A stretch of DNA of 64,000 nt from Verrucomicrobiaceae bacterium (GTDB taxonomy: Bacteria > Verrucomicrobiota > Verrucomicrobiia > Verrucomicrobiales > Verrucomicrobiaceae), in the NCBI GenBank assembly GCA_019694165.1, contig JAIBCL010000010.1, positions 124,001 to 188,000 on the forward strand. The letters run 5' to 3'. The position numbers and the translations under genes were made by a program. Below are positions 29,161 through 53,777 of this stretch, piece after piece. The notes beneath the pieces are model-generated. The model was not told where the DNA came from and did no database searches. It saw only the letters and a list, made by a program, of their open reading frames with translations. Position 1 is the stretch's first letter, and each line of letters begins with the position of its first letter.

Positions 29161-32100
29161 ATGTTCAACTGGATCATCAAGAAAATCATCGGCACCAAGA
29201 ATCAGCGCACCGTGAAGCGCCTGTGGCCGGTGGTGGCTGAAATCAATGCCATCGAGCAGAGGCTCCAGTCGGAACCGGAGGAGGCTCTGCGCGGGCGCAC
29301 GGCGAAGTGGCAGGAGCAGTTCCGCGCGTTTCACACGCCGAAGTTCCTAGGAGGCGTGGGCCTCCGCGTGGCGGGCGAGGAGGAGGTGAACGCATGCCTC
29401 ACGCACATCGGCGAGGCTTTTGCACGGCTCACGTCGCACTTTTCCCAGATCGAGGGCGCGCCCTATCGCCAGGCGGTGGATTCAAGCAAATCGCTCGACG
29501 ACAAGAAGGCGCTCATCGACGAGGCGCGCGAGGCTTGGAACGAGATCCAGCCGAAGTTTGCGGAGATCGAGGCGAAGATGCTCGCCGACATACTGCCCGA
29601 GGCCTATGCGGTCGCGAAAAACGGTGCGCGCCGCATGTGCGGGCGTGACATCGTCGTCTCCGACCAGCCGATGAAGTGGGAGATGGTGCACTTCGACGTT
29701 CAGCTCATCGGCGGCACCGCACTGCACCGCGGCATGATCGCGGAAATGGCGACCGGTGAAGGCAAGACCCTCGTCGGCACGCTGCCCGTGTATCTGAACG
29801 CGCTCACCGGACGTGGCGTGCATGTGATCACGGTGAACGACTACCTCGCCCGACGCGACGCGGAGTGGATGGGCGCGCTCTACAAGTTCCTCGGCCTCAC
29901 CGTCGGCTGCATCCAGAACGACCAGCCCTCGCACATCCGCCGCGAGCAATACGAGTGCGACATCACCTACGGCACGAACAGCGAGTTCGGCTTTGACTAC
30001 CTGCGCGACAACGGCATGGCCTCCAGCAAGGAGCAGCAGGTGCAGCGCGGCCATTACTTCGCCATCATCGACGAAGTGGACTCCGTGCTCATCGATGAAG
30101 CGCGCACGCCGCTCATCATCAGCGGCCCGGTCACCGTCTCCACGCATCAATACGACCGCTACAAGCCGCTGGTGGAGCAGCTCGTGCGCCGGCAGAACGC
30201 CCTGTGCGCACGCCTCGTCTCCGAGGCGCGCGAGCACGCCGAGAAGGGAGAGCTTGACCTGGCGGGCCGCAAACTTTTCCAGTGCCACCTCGGCCAGCCG
30301 AAGAACCGTGCGCTGCTGCGCTGCATGGAGGAGCCGGAGATGCGCAAGGCGATGGAGAAGAGCGAACTGAGCTTTCACCAGGACACGCAGAAGATCGATC
30401 TCTTCAAGCTCAAGGAGGAGCTGTACTACTCCGTCGAGGAAAAGAGCCATGAGGCCGACCTCAGCGAAATGGGCCGCACGTTCATCAATCCGGACGATCC
30501 CGATGCCTTCGTGCTGCCGGATCTCGCGACGCTTTACTCCGAGATCGACGGCGATGCGACGCTTGGCGACCAGCAGAAGCAGCAGAAGAAAAGCGAACTC
30601 GCCGACCGTCTCGACCACCAGGGGCAGCGCATCCACCAGATCAGCCAGCTCCTGCGCGCCTACTGCCTCTACGAGAAGGATGTTGAGTACGTCGTCGAGG
30701 ACAACAAGGTCGTCATCGTCGATGAAGGCACCGGCCGCAAAATGCCGGGCCGCCGCTGGAGCGACGGATTGCACCAGGCCGTGGAGGCCAAGGAGGGCGT
30801 TCACATTGACGCCGAGACCCAGACGCTGGCCACCATCACGATCCAGAACTACTTCCGCCTGTATCAAAAGCTGGGCGGGATGACCGGCACCGCAGAGACG
30901 GACGCGGCCGAATTTCACGACATCTACGGTCTCGACGTGCTGACCATCCCGACGAACCGCCCGATCAAACGCCAGGATCAGAACGACAGCATCTACAAGA
31001 CGCGCCGCGAGAAATACAACGCGTGCATCGAGATGCTCAAGGAACTGCACGCGAAGGGCCAGCCGGTGCTCGTGGGCACCGCGAGCGTGGAGGCGTCCGA
31101 GACCGTGTCGCGCATGTTGAAACGTGAAAAGATCCCGCACGCGGTGCTGAACGCGAAGTACCACCGCCAGGAGGCTGAGATCATCGCGCGTGCCGGCTAT
31201 CGCGGCGCGGTCACAATCTCCACGAACATGGCCGGCCGCGGCACCGACATCAAGCTGGGCGAGGGAGTGCCGGACCTCGGCGGTTTGTTCGTCCTCGCCA
31301 CTGAACGTCACGAGAGCCGCCGCATCGACCGCCAGCTCCGCGGACGCTGCGCGCGCCAGGGTGATCCAGGCGAGAGCAAATTCTTCCTCAGCTTTGAAGA
31401 CGATCTCATGCGCAACTTCGGTGCGGCCGACCGCATGACGAAGATCATGGAGCGCTTCGGCATGAAGGAGGGCGAGGAACTCCAGCATCCGTGGCTGAAC
31501 CGCAGCGTGGAGACCGCGCAAAAGCGCGTGGAGCAGCGGAACTACGTCTGGCGCAAGCGCGTGCTCGAATACGATGACGTGATGAACCAGCAGCGCGAGG
31601 TGATCTACGAATGGCGCAATGACGTGCTCAACAGCCTCGACCCGCGCCTGCTCATCAACGACGCCGTCGAGAAAGGCATCCGTGAGAAGCTGGCGGAGTT
31701 CATCCCCGCCGAGCGATCCGATGATCCGGCCGATTACAAGGGCCTGCTCAACTGGGTGAACATCACCTTTCCCATCGGCCTGCACGAGAAGGACGCGCAG
31801 TTCGAGACGCGCGACCTCGACGGAAACGCAAAGTTCCTCATCGAGCGCATTCTCCATGCCTACGATCTCAAGACGCAGGGCGCATCGCCCACCGCGCTGC
31901 AGGAGATCGAGAAGATGATCCTTCTCAACGCCATCGACCGCCTCTGGCAGGAACACCTCTACAATCTCGACGCTCTCAAGGAAGGTGTGAGCCTCCGCTC
32001 CTACGGCCAGAAGGATCCTCTCATCGAGTTCAAGAGCGAGGCATTTTCGATTTTCTCCGCCCTCATGCACAACATCAACGGCGAGGTGCTCGGCAATCTC

Positions 32101-32385
32101 TTCCGCAGCACGCAGCAGCTCGCCGCCTTTGAGCAGTTCCTCGCGCAGATATCCACCATGCGCCCGCAGCAGCGCAGCGAATCTCAGTCGTCATCCACGA
32201 CGGCCACCACTACCGGCGGTGGCGGTGAGGAACCCGCTTCAAACGAGCCGCCCCCGCCTGGCGCTCCTCCGCGACTGATCATTCCGCCGTCGGCCAAACC
32301 CAAGGTCGCCAAAGTCGGCCCGAACGAGCCCTGCCCCTGCAATTCAGGCAAGAAGTACAAGAAGTGCTGCGGCCGTCTGGCCTAG
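29161..32385 (+). CDS. secA: Preprotein translocase ATPase SecA
   Basis: 1074 residues; longer than the 901 of E. coli. Seen: HRGMIAEMATGEGKTLVG (Walker A, about 191-206), HVITVNDYLARRDAEWMG, FAIIDEVDSVLIDEARTPLI (Walker B near 302), GGMTGTAETDAAEFHDIYGL, TNMAGRGTDIKLGEGV, RQLRGRCARQGDPGESKFF, and the terminal zinc motif CPCNSGKKYKKCCGR. An insertion of roughly 150 residues, rich in charged helices, lies at about 345-505, between the DEAD core and the motor's second half. Similar insertions occur in SecA of other PVC and Bacteroidetes bacteria. SecA drives protein export through SecYEG. Confidence 0.97.
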   Translation: MFNWIIKKIIGTKNQRTVKRLWPVVAEINAIEQRLQSEPEEALRGRTAKWQEQFRAFHTPKFLGGVGLRVAGEEEVNACLTHIGEAFARLTSHFSQIEGAPYRQAVDSSKSLDDKKALIDEAREAWNEIQPKFAEIEAKMLADILPEAYAVAKNGARRMCGRDIVVSDQPMKWEMVHFDVQLIGGTALHRGMIAEMATGEGKTLVGTLPVYLNALTGRGVHVITVNDYLARRDAEWMGALYKFLGLTVGCIQNDQPSHIRREQYECDITYGTNSEFGFDYLRDNGMASSKEQQVQRGHYFAIIDEVDSVLIDEARTPLIISGPVTVSTHQYDRYKPLVEQLVRRQNALCARLVSEAREHAEKGELDLAGRKLFQCHLGQPKNRALLRCMEEPEMRKAMEKSELSFHQDTQKIDLFKLKEELYYSVEEKSHEADLSEMGRTFINPDDPDAFVLPDLATLYSEIDGDATLGDQQKQQKKSELADRLDHQGQRIHQISQLLRAYCLYEKDVEYVVEDNKVVIVDEGTGRKMPGRRWSDGLHQAVEAKEGVHIDAETQTLATITIQNYFRLYQKLGGMTGTAETDAAEFHDIYGLDVLTIPTNRPIKRQDQNDSIYKTRREKYNACIEMLKELHAKGQPVLVGTASVEASETVSRMLKREKIPHAVLNAKYHRQEAEIIARAGYRGAVTISTNMAGRGTDIKLGEGVPDLGGLFVLATERHESRRIDRQLRGRCARQGDPGESKFFLSFEDDLMRNFGAADRMTKIMERFGMKEGEELQHPWLNRSVETAQKRVEQRNYVWRKRVLEYDDVMNQQREVIYEWRNDVLNSLDPRLLINDAVEKGIREKLAEFIPAERSDDPADYKGLLNWVNITFPIGLHEKDAQFETRDLDGNAKFLIERILHAYDLKTQGASPTALQEIEKMILLNAIDRLWQEHLYNLDALKEGVSLRSYGQKDPLIEFKSEAFSIFSALMHNINGEVLGNLFRSTQQLAAFEQFLAQISTMRPQQRSESQSSSTTATTTGGGGEEPASNEPPPPGAPPRLIIPPSAKPKVAKVGPNEPCPCNSGKKYKKCCGRLA

Positions 32386-41394: not shown

Positions 41395-41628
41395 ATGTCC
41401 AACGGTGAAATCGTGGGCCGAGGAGGCGGGTTGTGGCGGCGGGACACCGGACGGTCTTGGGGCCGCTGTCACTCTCGACGGCCGTTTCGGGGGCAGGGAA
41501 GGGGACGTTCCAGCGCCTCGCCACGCTTTTTGCATGGGGATACTGCTCAGCAAACGGCGCTTTCATTTTGCGGCGGCATGGTGATAATCGCGGCCAGCAA
41601 TTCACCAACAACCAGGAGCACACGAAGA

Positions 41629-43563
41629 ATGGGAAAGGAAGACAAATGGAGCGTCGAAGAAAGCGCGGACATGTACGGCATCCATGACTGGGGCCACGGC
41701 TACTTCGACATCTCGCCGAAGGGCGAAGTGACGGTGAACCTCAAGGACGGCAAGAAGCAGAAGCCGGTGAGCCTGGCGCAGATCGTGCGTGGCCTGCGTG
41801 ATCGCGGCACTCAGCTTCCCGTGCTCGTCCGTTTCGGCGACCTGCTGCGCTGGCGCATCGACGAGCTGAACGAAGGCTTTGCCACCGCCATCCGCGAGGC
41901 GAACTACCAGGGCGTCTATCGCGGCGTGTATCCGATCAAGGTGAACCAGCAGCAGGAGGTGATCGAGGAGATCACGCGCTATGGCCGCAAGTATCACTAC
42001 GGCCTCGAAGCGGGCAGCAAGCCGGAGCTGATCGCCGCGCTCGCGTTCATGCACGACCCGCAGGCATACATCGTGTGCAATGGCTACAAGGACGAGGAGT
42101 TCATCGACCTCGCACTCTACGCGCAGAAGATGGGCTTGCAGGTGATTCTCGTGCTCGAGATGCCCTCGGAGCTGGACTTGATCCTGAAGCGCTCAAGAAG
42201 AATGGGCGTGCGTCCGATGCTTGGCGTGCGCTTCCGGCTCTCCGCCGAGAGCGCCGGTCACTGGTCTTCGTCCGGCGGCGATGCGAGCGTCTTTGGTCTG
42301 AATATCTCGCAGGTCATGCGCACGGTGGACAGCCTGAGGAAGGAAGGGATGCTCGACTGCCTGCGGATGCTGCACTACCACCAGGGATCACAGATTCCAA
42401 ACATCCGTGCGATCCGTCAGGCGGTGACCGAGGCGGTGCGCGTGTACGTGGGTCTCGTGGCCGAAGGCGCGCGCATGGGCATCCTCGACCTGGGCGGCGG
42501 TCTGGCCATCAGCTACGACGGACTCAAAGGTGCGACAGCCGCGAGCAGCAACTATGAGATGAAGGAGTACTGTGCCGACGTGATCGAGGCCATCGCCGAG
42601 GTCACCGCCGAGGCGGGCGTGCCGCATCCCGACCTCATCACCGAGTCCGGGCGCGCCGTGGTGGCCTACTACTCGGTGCTCGTCATCAACATCCTCGACG
42701 TGAACCGCTTCGAGTCGCCCACGCCCGCCGCCATCAAGAAAGACGCACCCGCCCTGCTCAAGAACCTCTCCGACCTGCGCGAAGAGACGAAGAACGGCCT
42801 GAATCACAAGCTCACCCGCGAGCGCCTGCAGGAGGTGTACAACGACACCGTTTATTACCGCGACAAGCTGCGCTCCGAGTTCAGCTACGGCAAGGTGAGC
42901 CTCCGTCAGCGCGCGCAGGGCGAGGAGTTGTACTGGGAGATCATGAACTGGATCTCAACGAAGCTCGACGATGCGGGGCACGATGGCTCCCAGATGGAGC
43001 GCCTCGCCACCGTGCAGACGGATTTCTACTACGGAAACTTCAGCGTCTTCCAGAGCCTGCCCGACCTCTGGGCCATCAAGCAGGTCTTTCCCGTCATGCC
43101 CATCCACCGCCTCAGGGAGAAGCCGGAGCGCAACGTGGTGCTCTCCGACATCACCTGCGACAGCGACGGAAAGATCTGCCACTTCGCGCATTCGAACGCG
43201 ATCAAGCCCAGCCTGCCGCTGCATGACATCGATCTGCACGGCGGCGAGGACTACATGCTCGGCGTCTTTCTGGTCGGCGCGTATCAGGAGACGCTGGGCG
43301 ACCTGCACAACCTGCTCGGCGACACGAACGTGATCAGCGTCAGGCTCGAGAACGGCAAGGTGAAATACAGCAACGAACTTGAAGGCGACACCGTCTCCGA
43401 GGTGCTGAGCTACGTGGAATACGAGCCACGCGAACTCATCACGCAATTCCGCAATCTGGCCGAAAGCGCCGTCGTCTCGAAGCGCATCACGCCCACGGAG
43501 CGGAAGGAGATCATGGAGGCGTACGAAGAGGGGCTGCGGGGCTACACTTATTTTGAGACATAG
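41629..43563 (+). CDS. speA: Biosynthetic arginine decarboxylase
   Basis: 644 residues, the normal SpeA length. The PLP-binding region is RGVYPIKVNQQQEVIEEI with Lys104; HYHQGSQIPNIRAI and GILDLGGGLAISYDG are conserved in fold III decarboxylases. The enzyme converts arginine to agmatine, the first step to putrescine. The ATG at 41629 follows AGGAG at good spacing; an in-frame frame reaching upstream to 41395 is not conserved and was left out. It is the first polyamine gene here, followed 3.2 kb on by a carboxynorspermidine dehydrogenase. Confidence 0.96.
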   Translation: MGKEDKWSVEESADMYGIHDWGHGYFDISPKGEVTVNLKDGKKQKPVSLAQIVRGLRDRGTQLPVLVRFGDLLRWRIDELNEGFATAIREANYQGVYRGVYPIKVNQQQEVIEEITRYGRKYHYGLEAGSKPELIAALAFMHDPQAYIVCNGYKDEEFIDLALYAQKMGLQVILVLEMPSELDLILKRSRRMGVRPMLGVRFRLSAESAGHWSSSGGDASVFGLNISQVMRTVDSLRKEGMLDCLRMLHYHQGSQIPNIRAIRQAVTEAVRVYVGLVAEGARMGILDLGGGLAISYDGLKGATAASSNYEMKEYCADVIEAIAEVTAEAGVPHPDLITESGRAVVAYYSVLVINILDVNRFESPTPAAIKKDAPALLKNLSDLREETKNGLNHKLTRERLQEVYNDTVYYRDKLRSEFSYGKVSLRQRAQGEELYWEIMNWISTKLDDAGHDGSQMERLATVQTDFYYGNFSVFQSLPDLWAIKQVFPVMPIHRLREKPERNVVLSDITCDSDGKICHFAHSNAIKPSLPLHDIDLHGGEDYMLGVFLVGAYQETLGDLHNLLGDTNVISVRLENGKVKYSNELEGDTVSEVLSYVEYEPRELITQFRNLAESAVVSKRITPTERKEIMEAYEEGLRGYTYFET

Positions 43564-46522: not shown

Positions 46523-46745
46523 GGAGTGGATCCTTTCCTTCTGAATTGATCTTGAGACATCGGAGGCCGGACCGGCCGGACTGCATTTCAGCCTATCTGC
46601 ATCGGGCTGGATTGCTCCACGGATACTGTCGCCCGGCGGGCCGTTCTTGCCCCGATGCAACACACTCACTCGGCTGCACACCGCACCCGTTGCGGAATGC
46701 ACCGTCGCTTGACGAGGGGTGCATCCGGCGAAATGTGCCGGCCCT

Positions 46746-47954
46746 ATGTCCCACAGAGTTCTCATCATCGGAGCAGGCGGCGTCGGCCGCGTGGTCACCC
46801 ACAAATGCGCGCAGCTCGCCGACGTGTTCGGCGAGATCATGCTCGCCTCGCGCACGAAGTCGAAGTGCGACGGCATCGCCGCCGAGTTGAAGCGCCCGAT
46901 TCAGACCGCCGCCGTCGATGCCGACAATGTGCCGGAGCTGGTGAAGCTGCTGAAGAGCTACAAGCCGGAAGTCGTGATCAACGTGGCGCTGCCCTATCAG
47001 GACCTCACGATCATGGACGCCTGCCTCGAAGCCGGCGTGCATTACATCGACACCGCGAACTACGAGCCGCGCGATGTGGCGAAGTTTGAGTATCACTGGC
47101 AGTGGGCCTATCAGGACCGCTTCAAGAACGCCGGCCTCACTGCGCTGCTCGGCTGCGGGTTCGATCCCGGTGTGACGAATGTTTACACCGCCTACGCGAT
47201 GAAGCATCATTTCAGCAAGATCGACACGCTCGACATCATCGACTGCAACGCGGGCGACCACGGCAAGGCATTCGCCACCAATTTCAATCCCGAGATCAAT
47301 CTGCGCGAAGTCACCGCGAACGGCCGCTACTGGGAGAACGGCAGGTGGGTCGAAACGAAACCGCTCGAAATCAAACGCAGCTTTTCGTTCCCTGATGGCA
47401 TCGGACCGAAGAACATCTACTGCCTCTACCACGAGGAACTCGAATCGCTGACCAAGCACTTCGACATCCGCCGCGCGCGTTTCTGGATGACCTTCGGCGA
47501 TCAATACATCAAGCACATGGAAGTGCTGGTGAACGTCGGCATGACCGGCATCCATCCCGTGAAGCACAAAGGCGTGGACATCATCCCCATCGAGTTCTTG
47601 AAAACACTGCTGCCCGAGCCAGGCACGCTCGGACAGGATACGAAGGGCAAGACCTGCATCGGCAACTGGATCGAAGGCACCGGCAAGGACGGCAAGCCGA
47701 TGCGCTACTATGTGTACAACATCTGCGACCACCAGGAGTGCTACCGCGAGACGAACTCCCAGGGCGTCAGCTACACCACCGGCGTGCCGGCGATGATCGC
47801 CGCGCGCCAGCTTCTCACCAATCCCGCCGAATACCGCCAGCCCGGCGTGTGGAACGTCGAGCAGCTCAATCCCGATCCCTTCATGGCCGACCTCAACAAG
47901 TACGGTCTCCCGTGGGTGGAGACATGGCCGACGACGAAACTGCCGGGCGAGTGA
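46746..47954 (+). CDS. Carboxynorspermidine dehydrogenase (saccharopine dehydrogenase family)
   Basis: 402 residues. The Rossmann start is RVLIIGAGGVGRVVTHKCAQ, with VVINVALPYQDLTIMDACLE, YIDTANYEP, ALLGCGFDPGVTNVYTAYAM and CNAGDHGKAFATNFNPEINL, all typical of carboxynorspermidine (carboxyspermidine) dehydrogenases. These enzymes join aspartate semialdehyde to a diamine and reduce the product with NADPH; a decarboxylase then gives spermidine. Together with speA upstream this indicates the alternative spermidine route. The decarboxylase gene (nspC) is not in the window. The ATG at 46746 is the first before the Rossmann motif. Confidence 0.92.
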   Translation: MSHRVLIIGAGGVGRVVTHKCAQLADVFGEIMLASRTKSKCDGIAAELKRPIQTAAVDADNVPELVKLLKSYKPEVVINVALPYQDLTIMDACLEAGVHYIDTANYEPRDVAKFEYHWQWAYQDRFKNAGLTALLGCGFDPGVTNVYTAYAMKHHFSKIDTLDIIDCNAGDHGKAFATNFNPEINLREVTANGRYWENGRWVETKPLEIKRSFSFPDGIGPKNIYCLYHEELESLTKHFDIRRARFWMTFGDQYIKHMEVLVNVGMTGIHPVKHKGVDIIPIEFLKTLLPEPGTLGQDTKGKTCIGNWIEGTGKDGKPMRYYVYNICDHQECYRETNSQGVSYTTGVPAMIAARQLLTNPAEYRQPGVWNVEQLNPDPFMADLNKYGLPWVETWPTTKLPGE

Positions 47955-47972: not shown

Positions 47973-48983
47973 TCACGACTGCGCCAGCACGGCGCCGATG
48001 GCCTGCTGCCCGTGGCCGATGGCGCTGATGACGGCGCTGTCGGCCGCGCCGCGATGCAGCAGTTCACAGGCCAGCACCGTCTGCCAGCCGGCGCTCACGC
48101 CGAAGCCTTCACCCAGCCAGCGCGCGGGCGAATGCACGGACGAGGCAGGCCACAGGTGTTCTTCATCCGCATCGAGAATGGAGCTTCCACAGCGGCTGTC
48201 GCATACGACAGCCGCCGGGGGCGTGTCGATCTGCGCGCGCATTTTCGCGGCGGCTGCCGCGCGCGAAGTGCGGTGCCCCATGAGGATGGAGCCCGTGATC
48301 TGGTCGATGCGGATGCCATCCGATGCTCCGCAGGAAAGCCAGACGGCGGCCGCGCCTTCGGCGGCGACGCGGTCACCGGGAAACAGATGCAGCGCCTCGG
48401 TGCTCAGCCAGTCGAGTTCCTCGGCGGCGACGACGAGGCATTGGCTCACTCGCCCCTCCGCGAGCCAGTGCACGGCCACGTCCAGTCCACGGAGAAACTG
48501 CGCCGAATCGCCGATGAGCGTGTAGTTCGCCGCCGGAGTGCCGAGCACGGCTCCGAGGTGGCTGGCCGGGGCGTTGAAGACGGTCTCGGGAAAAAGGATG
48601 GGGCTGGCGAGGGCGGGGTTCTCACACACCTCGGCGAAGAAACGGCGGCTGAAGGTGACGCTGCCGTTCATCGTGGTGAAGATGACGCCCGTCGGTTCAC
48701 TCCCGGCATCCACCATGCCGCCGAGTGCTTCAAGAGCGGCGCTCACGGCGAAGCGTGTGGCGGGACTCACCCGCCTGAGTCGCGCGTGCCGCAGCCACGC
48801 AGGCTGGGCGCTCATCGGCGGCACGGCGCGAAACCTGCGGAGCGGCGCCGCATCGACGCGCCGCTCCTCCGTGACGGGCAGTGCGTTCTTTTCCAACACC
48901 ACGTCCGCCAGCGTGCCCGCACTCCAGCCTGCGGGCGAGACTGCGCCCCATCCTTTGATGAAGACATCCACTTCCACGCTCAT
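47973..48983 (-). CDS. Inactive-looking ketosynthase (chain-length-factor-like)
   Basis: 336 residues with thiolase-fold character (VFIKGWGAVSPAGWSAGTLA at the start; FNAPASHLGAVLGTPAANYT and VVAAEELDWLSTEALHLFPG). By eye, the position of the ketosynthase nucleophile reads IGDSAQF, so the Cys is a Ser (S160), and the two catalytic His motifs are absent. It thus resembles the chain-length factors that pair with active ketosynthases in type II polyketide systems. Its start overlaps the stop of the active ketosynthase gene by 4 nt (ATGA), as such pairs do. Family identity is inferred from fold features; the loss of residues is by inspection. Confidence 0.75.
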   Translation of the reverse strand: MSVEVDVFIKGWGAVSPAGWSAGTLADVVLEKNALPVTEERRVDAAPLRRFRAVPPMSAQPAWLRHARLRRVSPATRFAVSAALEALGGMVDAGSEPTGVIFTTMNGSVTFSRRFFAEVCENPALASPILFPETVFNAPASHLGAVLGTPAANYTLIGDSAQFLRGLDVAVHWLAEGRVSQCLVVAAEELDWLSTEALHLFPGDRVAAEGAAAVWLSCGASDGIRIDQITGSILMGHRTSRAAAAAKMRAQIDTPPAAVVCDSRCGSSILDADEEHLWPASSVHSPARWLGEGFGVSAGWQTVLACELLHRGAADSAVISAIGHGQQAIGAVLAQS

Positions 48984-50230
48984 GCCTTGTACCTCCGAAA
49001 AACGAGCGTGGCATTCGCTCCGCCGAAGCCGAACGAGTTCGTGAGCGTGCAATCCAGCTGCGCATCACGGGGCGACTGCACGAGATCAAAAGTGCAGACG
49101 GGATCAGGCTGCGCGACAGGCACGTTCGGCGGCAGCCAGCCGCCGCGCATCGCCATGAGACAGATCACGGCTTCCACTGCTCCTGCGCCGCCGAGCAGAT
49201 GGCCGATGGAGCCTTTGGTGGAACTCACGCGCACGCGCGCCACGGCATCGCCGGCCCACCGCTGGATGGCGAGACCCTCGGCGGCATCATTGAGCGGCGT
49301 GCCCGTGCCGTGGGAGTTGAGGTAGCCGATCTCACCAGGCTGCACGCCGGCCTCCGCGCACGCCTCCGTCATGCTGCGCAGCGCAGCGTCGCCCTGGGGA
49401 TGCGGCTGGGTGAGGTGATGCAGATCGGTGCTCGCACCGTAGCCGGCCGCCTCGCCAAGAATGGTGGCGCCACGCGCGAGTGCGTCGTCAAGACGTTCGA
49501 GCGTGAGCATCGCGGCGCCTTCGCCAAGCGCGAGACCATCCCGCGTGGCATCAAACGGGCGTGGCGTCGTGGTGCTCAGCGCCTGGAGTGAATCGAAGCC
49601 GGCAAACACCAGCTCCGCGATGGCATCGTAACCGCCACAGAACGCGCGCCGTGCACGGCCCCATTTCACGAGGTGAAATGCATGGCCGATGGCGTTCGCG
49701 CCCGAGGCGCACGCATTGGCGATGATGGAGACCGGGCCGCTGATGCCCGTGGCATCAGCCAGCAACTGCGCCTGCGTGTGGGGCAGGTAGCCGGTGACGA
49801 GACCTGCCAGCGCCTTCTTTTGCGCAGGGTGACAGCTCTTCGATCTGAAATACTTCTCTCCCAGTGCCATCGCGCCTGCGCTCGTACCCAGCGAGATGGG
49901 GATGCTCTCGCCTTCGGTGTCATGCCATGCCGCCTGCCGCGCCGCCTCCATGCCGGCGTGCAGCAGCAGCGTGGTGGCGCGGTCGAGACGGCCGAGCTGC
50001 CGCCCGGTGAGCCGCGTCTCAGGAAGCGGAGCATCCATGACCACCTCTCCGCCTGAGTGCACGCGCTGGCGCGAGGTGTCGAACACTGTCACGGGCCGCA
50101 AGGCCACGCGCCCCGAGCGGAAGCCTCCGGCATTCACTTCCCAGCCGTGCCCCATCGACGTGACGATGCCCGCGCCCGTGATCACGACACGGTGCGGACC
50201 GTTGAACTTGTCGCCGCGTCGCCAGGCCAT
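48980..50230 (-). CDS. Beta-ketoacyl synthase (FabF-type, catalytic)
   Basis: 416 residues. The catalytic triad is complete: C174 in NACASGANAIGHAF, H307 in YLNSHGTGTPLNDA and H344 in TKGSIGHLLGGAGAVEA; the end has TNSFGFGGANATLVF. It should condense acyl and malonyl units on an acyl carrier protein. AGAGGG precedes the ATG at 50230 at good spacing; an upstream frame to 50482 was rejected as it crosses the divergent promoter. It is coupled to the chain-length-factor-like gene. No ACP, ketoreductase or dehydratase is adjacent, so the locus is minimal or depends on housekeeping enzymes. Confidence 0.92.
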   Translation of the reverse strand: MAWRRGDKFNGPHRVVITGAGIVTSMGHGWEVNAGGFRSGRVALRPVTVFDTSRQRVHSGGEVVMDAPLPETRLTGRQLGRLDRATTLLLHAGMEAARQAAWHDTEGESIPISLGTSAGAMALGEKYFRSKSCHPAQKKALAGLVTGYLPHTQAQLLADATGISGPVSIIANACASGANAIGHAFHLVKWGRARRAFCGGYDAIAELVFAGFDSLQALSTTTPRPFDATRDGLALGEGAAMLTLERLDDALARGATILGEAAGYGASTDLHHLTQPHPQGDAALRSMTEACAEAGVQPGEIGYLNSHGTGTPLNDAAEGLAIQRWAGDAVARVRVSSTKGSIGHLLGGAGAVEAVICLMAMRGGWLPPNVPVAQPDPVCTFDLVQSPRDAQLDCTLTNSFGFGGANATLVFRRYKA

Positions 50231-50304
50231 GTGTCCCTCTAGCGGAGAACGCCGGACCGTGCAATTTCCCGTTTTCATCCCGCTCCGATGCGGCAATCTG
50301 GCCG
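50231..50304. promoter_or_regulatory. Divergent promoter region of the ketosynthase locus
   Basis: Only 74 bp separate the oppositely reading ketosynthase and ligase genes, so both promoters, and any shared operator, must lie here or extend into the coding starts. I cannot point to a clear -10/-35 pair. Confidence 0.5.
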
Positions 50305-51588
50305 ATGCTCTTTGACCTGTGGCAATCGACCGTCCGGCGCCTGCGCGATCGCGATGCGCTGGTGGACGTGCATGCAGGCACCCGGCTCTCGTTTGGAGAG
50401 ATGGATTCGCTCGTGGCCGCTGAGCCTCGGCTCGTGCGGGGAGAGATCGTGCCGGCGTGCACGGCGCACGGCCTGCCGTCATTCATCGTGCGGACGCTGT
50501 GCGCATGGCGGGACGGAGGTGTGCTTTGCCCTTTTGAATCACGGGCGCCTGATCTCACGCTCCTGCGCGGCCTGCCCGCAGGCATTGCGCATGTGAAATC
50601 GACATCGGGGAGCACGGGCGGTGCGCGCTTCGTGCTGTTTCGCGAGGAGCAGTTGCTGGCCGATGTGCGGAACATCAGCACGACGATGGGCTTCGATGCG
50701 CGCTTGCCGAACCTTGGCGTCATCTCCGCCGCTCACTCCTACGGTTTCTCTCATCTCGTGCTGCCGTTGCTCATCGATGGCATGCCGCTCTGGCATGTGC
50801 CTGACCCGCTGCCGGAGTCGATGCGCGTTGCCTTCACATCGGGCGGGGATTTTTTTCTTCCCGCAGTGCCCGCCATGTGGCGCGCGTGGCATCTCGCAGG
50901 CGTGCTGAAGGGCGCGCCGGTGCGGCTGGCCATGTCGGCGGGTGCGCCGCTGCCGCTGGAGCTGGAGCAGCAGGTCTTCGCGGAGAGCGGGATCAAGATT
51001 CACAACTTCTACGGTGCCAGCGAGTGCGGAGGCATCGCCTACGACGACAGCGCCGTCCCGCGCACCGACGCGGCGCTCGTCGGCCGGCCGCTCAATGGCG
51101 TGCGTGTGGCTGCTGATGAGGAAGGCTGCATGGTGATCACCAGCGACGCCGTCGGCCTCGGCTATTGGCCGCCCCGGCCGGACTCGCCCATCCGCGACGG
51201 CACCGTGACCGCGCCTGATCTGGCGGAGATCACTGAAGCGGGCGTGCGTCTCGTCGGGAGAAAGAGCGACACCATCAACGTCGCCGGCCGCAAGATCCCG
51301 CCGTCGGACATCGAGCACGCGCTGCTGGAGATGCCGCGCATCACGCATTGCGTGGTCTTCGGCGTGCCGGGCGCCGACGCCGCGCGAGTGGAGGACATCG
51401 TCGCGTGTGTGAATTGTGACGCGAAGCTCGGCCAGGACGAGATCACCGCCTTTCTCGCCACGCGGTTGCCGGCGTGGCAAATGCCGCGCCGGTGGTGGAT
51501 CACGGGCACGCTAGTGCCGGACGAGCGGGGAAAAATATCGCGCGCCCTCTGGCGCGAGCGGTTTCTCTCGGAGAGCACCGCAAGATAA
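50305..51588 (+). CDS. AMP-dependent synthetase/ligase (short ANL family)
   Basis: 427 residues; somewhat shorter than standard acyl-CoA ligases, with little before the P-loop. ANL motifs are in order: HVKSTSGSTGGARFVLFRE (A3), HNFYGASECGGIAYDD (A5), RLVGRKSDTINVAGRKIPPS (A8) and PDERGKISRALW with the A10 Lys. It should activate a carboxylic acid as the adenylate and pass it to a thiol carrier; the acid is unknown. It diverges from the ketosynthase pair and could load the starter unit for it. Confidence 0.88.
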   Translation: MLFDLWQSTVRRLRDRDALVDVHAGTRLSFGEMDSLVAAEPRLVRGEIVPACTAHGLPSFIVRTLCAWRDGGVLCPFESRAPDLTLLRGLPAGIAHVKSTSGSTGGARFVLFREEQLLADVRNISTTMGFDARLPNLGVISAAHSYGFSHLVLPLLIDGMPLWHVPDPLPESMRVAFTSGGDFFLPAVPAMWRAWHLAGVLKGAPVRLAMSAGAPLPLELEQQVFAESGIKIHNFYGASECGGIAYDDSAVPRTDAALVGRPLNGVRVAADEEGCMVITSDAVGLGYWPPRPDSPIRDGTVTAPDLAEITEAGVRLVGRKSDTINVAGRKIPPSDIEHALLEMPRITHCVVFGVPGADAARVEDIVACVNCDAKLGQDEITAFLATRLPAWQMPRRWWITGTLVPDERGKISRALWRERFLSESTAR

Positions 51589-51660
51589 GGGCAATCCCTG
51601 TGTCCAACTGCTTGCCATCGGGCCGCGCCGGATGTCATCATCACCTGTAGATTTCCCCGC

Positions 51661-53070
51661 TTGAGCCGACTGTCATCCAGCCCTGCCAGCACCGCGCGAC
51701 GAGTGTGGCTGCCGCCGCTGCGTTACTCGCTGCCAGTCATCATGCTCGTCTCGGGCCTTGTGTTGATATGCGTCGAGACCGCGTTGTTTCTGGCCTTTCA
51801 GGAGCGTCACGCCATCGACTCGGTAATGGAGCGCGCCACGCGAGACGGCGCCAGGATCGCACGCACGGCCGGGCACCTGCTTGCGGCGGGAGACGGCGCG
51901 GCGCTGGAGCGTGAGCTGGCTGCCACACGACGCGATCCCGGCCTCGTGGCAGTGGAACTCCGCTCCGCAGACGGAAACGCACCGCCGCAGTCTGAGATCG
52001 TGCGCTCGGCGTCGGGATCAGAAATCGTCGCCGGTTACCCCGTTCCGGGAGCGTTGCCTCCGCGGATGCTGCGCATGACTTTTGATCTTGCGGCTCCGCT
52101 GGCCGGAGCGCGCCGCATCGCATGGACGCAGGCGCTCGTCACCGCGTCGGTGCTCGGTCTCGGTGCGCTGCTGCTGTGGATCGCGCTGGACTCCGCCGTG
52201 GCGGCGCGCGCAGCGCGCATCGTGGCCGGAGCACGCGCCATGTCCACTGGTGCCGCGCCGGGTCCGCCCATCGAGGGTGACGACGAGCTGGCCGAGATCG
52301 ACCACGCCCTGCGCGATGCCCACGCGCTCATCCACCAGCAGGCTGCGGACCTGAGCGAGCGTGCCCGGGAACGCAGCCGCCTGGAGCAGGAAATCATCCG
52401 CATCAGCGAGCGCGAGCAGCGGCGGATCGGACAGGACTTGCACGATGATGTGTGCCAGCGTCTCGCGGCGGTGAAAATGAAGATTCAAGATCATGAGGAG
52501 AAGCTCGCATCGGTCGCGCCCGCCCTGATGGCGGATGCAAAGGCCATCGCCGGCGACCTCGCCGGTGCCATTCATGTCACGCGCTCCCTTGTCCGCGGGC
52601 TCTCTCCGGTGGAGATCGAGAGCGGCGGGCTGGCCCTCGCGCTGAAGGCCCTGGTGAGAAGTTCGCGCGACGTGTTCGGCATCGACTGCCTCCTGGAGGT
52701 CGACGAGGTTGCCGCGCCGGCGCTGCCGCACCAGACGGCCATCCAGCTCTACCGCATCGCTCAGGAGTGCATCGCCAATGCCGCGCGTCATGCGCGGTCC
52801 ACGCGCATCGTGGTGACTCTCGTGTGCACGCCGGAGGTGCTGACCCTGTGCGTCGCCAACGATGGCGCGCCGATGCCCGCGTCCGATGCAGCGGGCAATG
52901 GCATGGGCATCTCCATCATGCGGCACCGCGCGGAGAGCATCGGCGCCACCCTCGGCTTCGATTCCGCACCGGCCGGCGCCACCACCGCCGTGAGCTGCAC
53001 GCTGCCGACCTCGCTTTCCGCCACGCCGCCGCTTTCAAACACCAATAGGTCGCCGACTTCAATCCTATGA
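51661..53070 (+). CDS. NarL-family sensor histidine kinase
   Basis: 469 residues from a TTG start, the first in-frame start before the membrane part. Two membrane helices (LPVIMLVSGLVLICVETALF and AWTQALVTASVLGLGALLLW) flank a short external sensor region of about 100 residues. A HAMP-like linker leads to the HisKA_3 motif with the phospho-acceptor His in QDLHDDVCQRLAAVKMK, then the ATPase region with AQECIANAARHARSTR (N-box) and GNGMGISIMRHRAES (G-box). The signal is unknown. It overlaps the regulator gene by 4 nt. Confidence 0.9.
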   Translation: MSRLSSSPASTARRVWLPPLRYSLPVIMLVSGLVLICVETALFLAFQERHAIDSVMERATRDGARIARTAGHLLAAGDGAALERELAATRRDPGLVAVELRSADGNAPPQSEIVRSASGSEIVAGYPVPGALPPRMLRMTFDLAAPLAGARRIAWTQALVTASVLGLGALLLWIALDSAVAARAARIVAGARAMSTGAAPGPPIEGDDELAEIDHALRDAHALIHQQAADLSERARERSRLEQEIIRISEREQRRIGQDLHDDVCQRLAAVKMKIQDHEEKLASVAPALMADAKAIAGDLAGAIHVTRSLVRGLSPVEIESGGLALALKALVRSSRDVFGIDCLLEVDEVAAPALPHQTAIQLYRIAQECIANAARHARSTRIVVTLVCTPEVLTLCVANDGAPMPASDAAGNGMGISIMRHRAESIGATLGFDSAPAGATTAVSCTLPTSLSATPPLSNTNRSPTSIL

Positions 53071-53777
53071 GCGCCACCGCATCCGCCGCCGAAACCAGCA
53101 TGCCCGCCGGCCGTGCGGCCGCGCGCGTCGTCATCGTCGAGGATCACACGCTGATGCGCGAAGGGATCGCGCGGCTCGTGTCCAGCCAGCCTGATCTCAT
53201 CGTGTGCGCGGAAGCGGCGGACGCAGCGGCCGGGCTCCGGGTCATCCTCGACCACAAGCCCGACCTGGCGCTCATCGACATCACGCTGCCTGGCCGCAAC
53301 GGACTCGAACTCATCAAGGATGTGATCGCCCAGCAGCCCGGCCTCGCCATCGTGGTGCTCTCCATGCACGACGAGGCGCTCTACGCCGAGCGTACCCTGA
53401 AGGCCGGTGCGCGCGGCTACGTGATGAAGGACGCCGACCGTGACACCATCCTCGACGCCATCCGCCGCGTGCTTGGCGGCGGATTCTACGTGAGCGAGAG
53501 AATGTCCGCCGACATTTTTGCACAGTTTGCCGGCCGCGCCGCATCGATGAAAGGCAGCGTCAACTGCCTGAGCGATCGCGAGTTCGAGGTGTTCGAGCTG
53601 CTCGGCCAGGGACTCGGCACGCAGGAGATCGCGCACCGGCTCGGCATCAGCCCGAAGACAATCGAAGTGCACCGCGCGCACATTCGTGAGAAACTGGAGC
53701 AGCCCAGCGGTGCCGCCGTCGTCCGCTACGCCGTGCGGTGGATCGAGAGCCGGAATCTCGGTGAGAAAATGCTCTGA
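53067..53777 (+). CDS. NarL/LuxR-type response regulator
   Basis: 236 residues. Receiver domain: VVIVEDHTLMREGIARLV, phospho-acceptor Asp in LALIDITLPGRNGLEL and Lys in GYVMKDADRDT. LuxR-type helix-turn-helix: LSDREFEVFELLGQGLGTQE then IAHRLGISPKTIEVHR. Translation is coupled to the kinase gene (ATGA). Targets are unknown; the nearby ligase/ketosynthase divergent promoter is the first candidate by position. Confidence 0.93.
   Translation: MSATASAAETSMPAGRAAARVVIVEDHTLMREGIARLVSSQPDLIVCAEAADAAAGLRVILDHKPDLALIDITLPGRNGLELIKDVIAQQPGLAIVVLSMHDEALYAERTLKAGARGYVMKDADRDTILDAIRRVLGGGFYVSERMSADIFAQFAGRAASMKGSVNCLSDREFEVFELLGQGLGTQEIAHRLGISPKTIEVHRAHIREKLEQPSGAAVVRYAVRWIESRNLGEKML

Follow-up and report, generated by a model that had tools for sequence, protein, structure and literature searches.

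A ketosynthase and chain-length-factor-like pair in a Verrucomicrobiaceae bacterium, the probable core of a genomically dispersed polyketide synthase of the aryl-polyene type

Introduction

The closest described systems to the one considered here are the aryl polyene (APE) clusters, typified by that of E. coli. In a related system the ligase ApeH adenylates 4-hydroxybenzoate (4-HBA) and then loads it onto an acyl carrier protein (ACP) (PMC8253772), and the polyene is made by ApeO-ApeC (PMC8358021). Arylpolyene clusters have already been reported from Verrucomicrobiota by means of antiSMASH (PMC8692599), and one was reported in a yellow member of that phylum, Oceaniferula flavus (PMC9865893). 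This article deals with a ketosynthase (KS), its chain-length-factor-like partner (CLF) and an adjoining ligase, which lie between positions 47973 and 51588 of a stretch of 64,000 nucleotides, hereafter the window, from a Verrucomicrobiaceae bacterium (assembly GCA_019694165.1, contig JAIBCL010000010.1, positions 124,001 to 188,000). It is likely that the KS and CLF of this locus form the core of a highly reducing type II polyketide synthase (PKS) of the aryl-polyene type, whose other genes are dispersed in the genome. A preliminary description of the locus had suggested that it could be a small regulated system and was not a standard aryl-polyene or flexirubin cluster.

The ketosynthase

The KS, a member of the ApeO/FabF superfamily with PF00109 and PF02801 domains, is encoded on the minus strand (48980..50231) by an in-frame open reading frame (ORF) that runs from an ATG at 50231 to a TGA at 48980. 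It had been described as an active FabF-like enzyme with C174, H307 and H344, and these three residues have been confirmed. Counted from the ATG at 50231, these residues and K339 correspond to C216, H349, H386 and K381 of P0001, and the Cys, both His and the Lys are invariant in all 19 verrucomicrobial KSs of a 60-sequence KS and CLF alignment that also holds 19 CLFs.

In the KS tree, in which several reference branches are long, the KSs of Verrucomicrobiota form a clade of their own (the V-clade, support 100/99). It groups with E. coli ApeO, two flexirubin-type KSs of Aureispira and one Streptomyces KS that comes from a cluster with ketoreductase (KR) and dehydratase genes (97/88). Approximately unbiased (AU) tests rejected trees in which the V-clade was forced together with the FabFs (cost 25.6 log units, p-AU 0.013) or made sister to a Streptomyces KS-alpha of the type II aromatic kind (20.9 log units, p-AU 0.022), and on the latter result an identity as an actinorhodin-type KS-alpha was rejected. 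The phylogeny that the preliminary description had proposed as a check has thus placed the window KS outside the housekeeping FabF and FabB clades, and other FabF-type KSs are present in the same genome. By hhalign, the window KS is homologous to E. coli ApeO (100%).

The chain-length-factor-like partner

The start of the CLF gene (47973..48983, minus strand) and the stop codon of the KS overlap in an ATGA, with a GGAGG upstream, and the CLF protein matches PF13723 with 26.1 bits against a cut-off of 25. A Ser, in the motif GDSAQF, occupies the position of the nucleophile and the catalytic His residues are missing, as had been noticed from the letters of this one gene. The alignment shows that the loss is family-wide: among the 19 CLF relatives, S, P, A, G, T, Q or N takes the place of the nucleophile, with no case of Cys; His does not occur at all in the first of the two His columns, and 17 of the relatives have E or D in the second. 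The loss therefore does not stem from a sequencing error.

An AlphaFold2 model of the CLF (mean pLDDT 88.5) predicts a full ketosynthase fold. When the model was compared by Foldseek, the top three matches were CLF chains of ishigamide biosynthesis (E 2.9e-17 to 8.9e-17), that is, of the Iga11-Iga12 KS-CLF of a highly reducing type II PKS, yet the identity is 20%. VIA-align superposed 321-333 residues of the model (Z 34-35) with FabB, FabF and CLF chains tied, so that fold alone cannot separate a CLF from a KS. The predicted fold can be taken as settled, and the role of a CLF is suggested by this fold together with the lost catalytic residues and the coupling to the KS. A partner that retained its catalytic residues had been named as an observation that would speak against such a role; the residues are lost across the family, and the fold is kept. 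The CLF of an Aureispira anguillae cluster aligns to that of the window by hhalign (95%), and a plasmid search with the CLF gave just three weak Streptomyces matches. Chains of PDB 9s5h match both the KS and the CLF by sequence; no relevant paper was found, and this source was not used.

The ligase and the divergent region

A short acyl/aryl ligase of the ANL superfamily is encoded on the plus strand (50305..51588; PF00501 and PF13193). Its start at 50305 lies 73-74 bp from that of the KS, in agreement with the distance of 74 bp given in the preliminary description. It is probably active, since it retains TSGSTG, a YGxSE-type motif and a C-terminal GK lysine, and an ApeH-like role in loading the starter is proposed on the basis of an hhalign match to E. 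coli ApeH over 305 columns (98% probability, E 8e-15). The ligase is divergent from the KS wherever it was detected, in 65 of 65 locus records with 54 unique KS sequences, some genomes being counted twice among the 65. The 73-bp intergenic region (50232..50304) presumably holds the promoters of both genes; because no sigma-70-like site was found when one was looked for in it, it is the layout that points to this role.

Distribution, fusions and gene neighbourhoods

The CLF is present in 75 of 152 good genomes of the order and in 33 of 312 in a wider sample of the phylum. It matches 331 stretches of public genome contigs, and among the best 80 of these loci, those named to phylum are from Verrucomicrobiota, except for one metagenome-assembled genome labelled Acidobacteria. 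A gene-neighbourhood search had been suggested earlier for the trio. KS and CLF are adjacent in nearly all loci, and the order as a whole retains the pair.

In 8 of 97 unique loci, the two are fused into a single ORF, in which 15-32 residues separate the matched parts (L045:10983-13424 in genome G163, L053:8176-10515, L065:9505-12153, L069:3479-5860, L070:9499-12015, L075:8256-10571, L156 and L161). The distribution of fused and separate forms on the KS tree requires at least four changes.

The genes around KS and CLF were called in the relatives with a simple in-house ORF caller. Many relatives have a KR, an ACP and halogenase-like flavoproteins downstream of the CLF; an ACP adjoins KS/CLF in about half of the loci and a KR in many. 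The flavoprotein is a Trp-halogenase-like FAD protein that recurs beside KS/CLF. Fuller loci add a FabA-type dehydratase, a lipid-A-type (LpxL) acyltransferase, a methyltransferase, a polysaccharide deacetylase, GT2, LolA and MMPL proteins, and the same functional classes are listed for the E. coli cluster (PMC8253772). In genome G155, these neighbour genes and the KS and CLF occupy about 15 kb in all. Two candidates were set aside in this survey. L195:6257-9568, considered as an MMPL exporter beside a GT2, was dropped because its Pfam domains are of the planctomycete PSD1/PSCyt type, and L192:10598-11533, considered as a deacetylase, is an RlaP protein, the deacetylase being the next ORF (L192:9514-10413).

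A radical SAM protein similar to HydE/PylB lies beside the KS in 18 loci (for example L133:4309-5481, L163:5402-6445 and L159:7653-8747, with 15 more). The window's genome (G000) has a relative of this protein at C50:152140-153033. At L145:5827-8747, two adjacent B12-binding radical SAM genes stand just upstream of the KS, and genes like them are found in a few more loci.

The remaining genes in the window's genome

Within the window, no ACP, KR or dehydratase was seen next to KS/CLF, nor was a cyclase or aromatase. The preliminary description was right on this point as far as the surroundings of the locus are concerned, but an ACP and a dehydratase of the appropriate type are present elsewhere in the genome, whose assembly is 96% complete. 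Homologues of the ACP, flavoprotein, dehydratase, acyltransferase, methyltransferase and deacetylase occur at five other places on four contigs. The ACP and the flavoprotein lie together at C13:21736-23570 (L085:9786-11671), directly after rpoA and a ribosomal L17-type (rplQ-type) gene, an unusual site for polyketide genes. The FabA-type dehydratase is on C25, beside a tRNA-thiouridylase-like gene, and the methyltransferase on C2; C57 carries the lipid-A-type acyltransferase, accompanied by a small membrane protein, and, 233 kb away, the polysaccharide deacetylase. The aryl-polyene-type genes of this genome are thus non-contiguous, being spread over C2, C13, C25, C38 and C57. The dispersal is not an artefact of assembly, since pathway genes are also dispersed in two single-contig genomes, G049 and G056. 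An MMPL gene on C31 was rejected as pathway-specific evidence, because it has counterparts in CLF-negative genomes as well.

The presence of these genes follows that of the CLF. In a set of 36 genomes, strong homologues of the acyltransferase, methyltransferase, dehydratase and deacetylase are found in 20 of 20 CLF-positive and 1 of 16 CLF-negative genomes; several of the genome searches used concatenated query proteins, and their E-values are approximate. The other 15 CLF-negative genomes have, among the matches listed, weak deacetylase-type matches only. The flavoprotein is strong in most, not all, CLF-positive genomes. The sole CLF-negative genome with all four genes, G041, is a 320-contig assembly in which every pathway gene tested has a strong homologue and only the CLF is undetectable; its absence is probably an assembly gap.

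Comparison with known systems

Like ApeA-R of E. coli CFT073, the genes assembled here comprise a KS-CLF pair, an ANL ligase, an ACP, a FabA-type dehydratase and a methyltransferase, together with acyltransferase, GT2, LolA and MMPL/RND exporter functions. Unlike that cluster, the window's genome has its genes scattered, the ligase divergent and no UbiC; no FabB-like second KS adjoins the locus, and a Trp-halogenase-like flavoprotein and a polysaccharide deacetylase are present. Because several defining features of the E. coli cluster are lacking, the system is proposed to work like it, without being a member in every respect. Since arylpolyene clusters were already known from Verrucomicrobiota, it is a variant and not a new class; it stands apart by its scattered genes, its CLF of full size, its divergent ligase and its lack of known starter genes, and by the repeated fusion of KS and CLF among its relatives.

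The plasmid cluster of Aureispira anguillae (NZ_AP026868), called flexirubin-type here from our reading of its gene content and not from the annotation of the record, also pairs a KS with a full-size CLF (334 aa). It has an ACP, a FabG-type KR, LolA and a polysaccharide deacetylase, and its KSs fall near that of the window in the tree. It differs in that a single block contains an aromatic amino-acid ammonia-lyase as well as several KSs. The tyrosine/phenylalanine ammonia-lyase that provides a coumarate-type starter, a flexirubin feature, was not found in the window's genome. Halogenation of the aryl head, mentioned for xanthomonadin (PMC8253772), the halogenated aryl polyene of Xanthomonas, would fit the Trp-halogenase-like flavoprotein; the comparison is by description, and halogenase activity is suggested here by the family and a WxWxIP-like motif.

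Proposed pathway and alternative explanations

In the proposed pathway, the ligase would adenylate an acid starter, probably aromatic, and then load it onto the dedicated ACP encoded on C13. KS and CLF, presumably as a heterodimer, would add malonyl units, the CLF shaping the cavity and limiting the length of the chain, and each round would include the action of a ketoreductase, with FabG as a candidate, and of the FabA-type dehydratase of C25, to give a conjugated polyene. The flavoprotein of C13 and the methyltransferase of C2 may tailor the aryl head. The acyltransferase and deacetylase of C57, with proteins of the LolA and MMPL types, would then serve to esterify the chain to a lipid and to move it to the outer membrane, and the end product would be a yellow membrane pigment.

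Several observations weigh against this reading. Neither an aromatic amino-acid ammonia-lyase (PF00221), also absent from 18 of 19 other CLF-positive genomes tested, nor a UbiC-type chorismate lyase (PF04345) is found in the window's genome, which leaves the origin of an aryl starter unexplained; other sources of aryl acids were not searched for. No dedicated KR orthologue of the cluster type was found in the 96%-complete assembly, in which FabG is present. The best short-chain dehydrogenase/reductase, encoded on C25, was rejected as a dedicated KR and is a FabG, with 50% identity to E. coli FabG against 31-43% to the cluster KRs. In the KS tree, the grouping of the V-clade with ApeO and the Aureispira KSs to the exclusion of the Streptomyces KS is weak (76/34). 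Unlike the window CLF, of which 326-333 of 336 residues align over the full ketosynthase fold, the E. coli CLF ApeC is of half size, and the two give no match by hhalign. The ligase shares only 24% identity with ApeH, and the sequence does not reveal its substrate. Finally, the co-occurrence counts are uncorrected for phylogeny, although CLF-positive and CLF-negative genomes both occur in at least five families.

Some of these points would suit a highly reducing type II PKS whose starter is not aromatic, in which the ligase would load an aliphatic acid and the product would be a lipid-attached polyenoic acyl chain, similar to ishigamide. The lack of ammonia-lyase and UbiC agrees with such a system, as do the grouping of the V-clade with the Streptomyces KS, whose own cluster includes a KR and a dehydratase, and the Foldseek proximity of the CLF to that of ishigamide. 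We consider it rather unlikely, however, given that the lipid-A-type acyltransferase, methyltransferase, GT2, LolA and MMPL genes of the relatives resemble Gram-negative aryl-polyene clusters (PMC8253772), that halogenase-like flavoproteins recur beside KS/CLF, and that the cluster counterpart of the ligase is ApeH. The small stand-alone KS/CLF/ligase system of the preliminary description, making an unusual acyl product under the control of the neighbouring kinase and regulator, has become improbable. No other biosynthetic gene is adjacent within the window, and a same-genus genome also has the kinase and regulator next to the ligase, but nearly all other KS/CLF loci have no such pair beside them, ACP and KR genes adjoin many of these loci, and the six pathway-gene homologues are present in the genome and co-occur with the CLF. 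Because these genes exist elsewhere in the genome and are clustered in relatives, the inference of a stand-alone system is unsupported; the exclusion of an aryl-polyene system, drawn from the same window, gives way before the aryl-polyene-type gene set that surrounds KS, CLF and ligase in those relatives. It is more improbable still that the two proteins are FabF paralogues from fatty acid synthesis that have decayed or been repurposed and have no specialised role. The best NCBIfam model for the KS is fabF, with a score below the cut-off (338 vs 494 bits), but the catalytic residues are invariant in the 19 relatives, the AU test rejects a placement with FabF, the genome has other FabF-type KSs, and KS and CLF have stayed paired throughout the order.

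A bolder reading is a tentative possibility. The locus might represent a highly reducing type II PKS lineage specific to Verrucomicrobiota, with KS and CLF clades of its own, repeated fusions, genome-wide scattering, a starter supplied by neither chorismate lyase nor ammonia-lyase, perhaps with the help of the HydE/PylB-like radical SAM enzyme in some relatives, and a polyene lipid of an undescribed class as its product.

The two-component pair and the genomic surroundings

The ligase is followed on the plus strand by a sensor histidine kinase (51661..53070, HisKA_3 and HATPase_c, start codon uncertain) and a NarL/LuxR-type response regulator (53067..53777, Response_reg-GerE), whose ORF shares the last 4 bp of the kinase ORF. 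This pair had been correctly recognised in the preliminary description as a NarL-type kinase and regulator. Among the relatives inspected, it adjoins the ligase only in a same-genus genome (L043), where the counterpart of the regulator has 80% identity. It is thus a lineage-specific neighbour and no general component of the system, and it may control the KS/CLF locus.

The flanks of the locus are unrelated to it. The CLF stop codon is 18 bp away from the end of a convergent carboxynorspermidine-synthase-like gene (46719-47954), and an arginine decarboxylase gene lies at 41395-43563, which suggests a polyamine gene group next door. On the other side, a minus-strand run of four sulfatase genes (PF00884, 53914-60732) has its end adjoining the response regulator. 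The window also encodes a SecA homologue of 1074 aa (29161-32385), unrelated to KS and CLF.

Implications

With the ACP, dehydratase, acyltransferase, methyltransferase and flavoprotein genes named elsewhere in the genome, what looked like an orphan trio of KS, CLF and ligase becomes a testable pathway. The natural KS-CLF fusions are single-chain forms of an enzyme that is normally encoded by two genes, and they could aid structural and engineering work. A polyene-type PKS that is widespread in Verrucomicrobiota can be dispersed, and cluster-based mining would therefore miss most of the pathway in such genomes.

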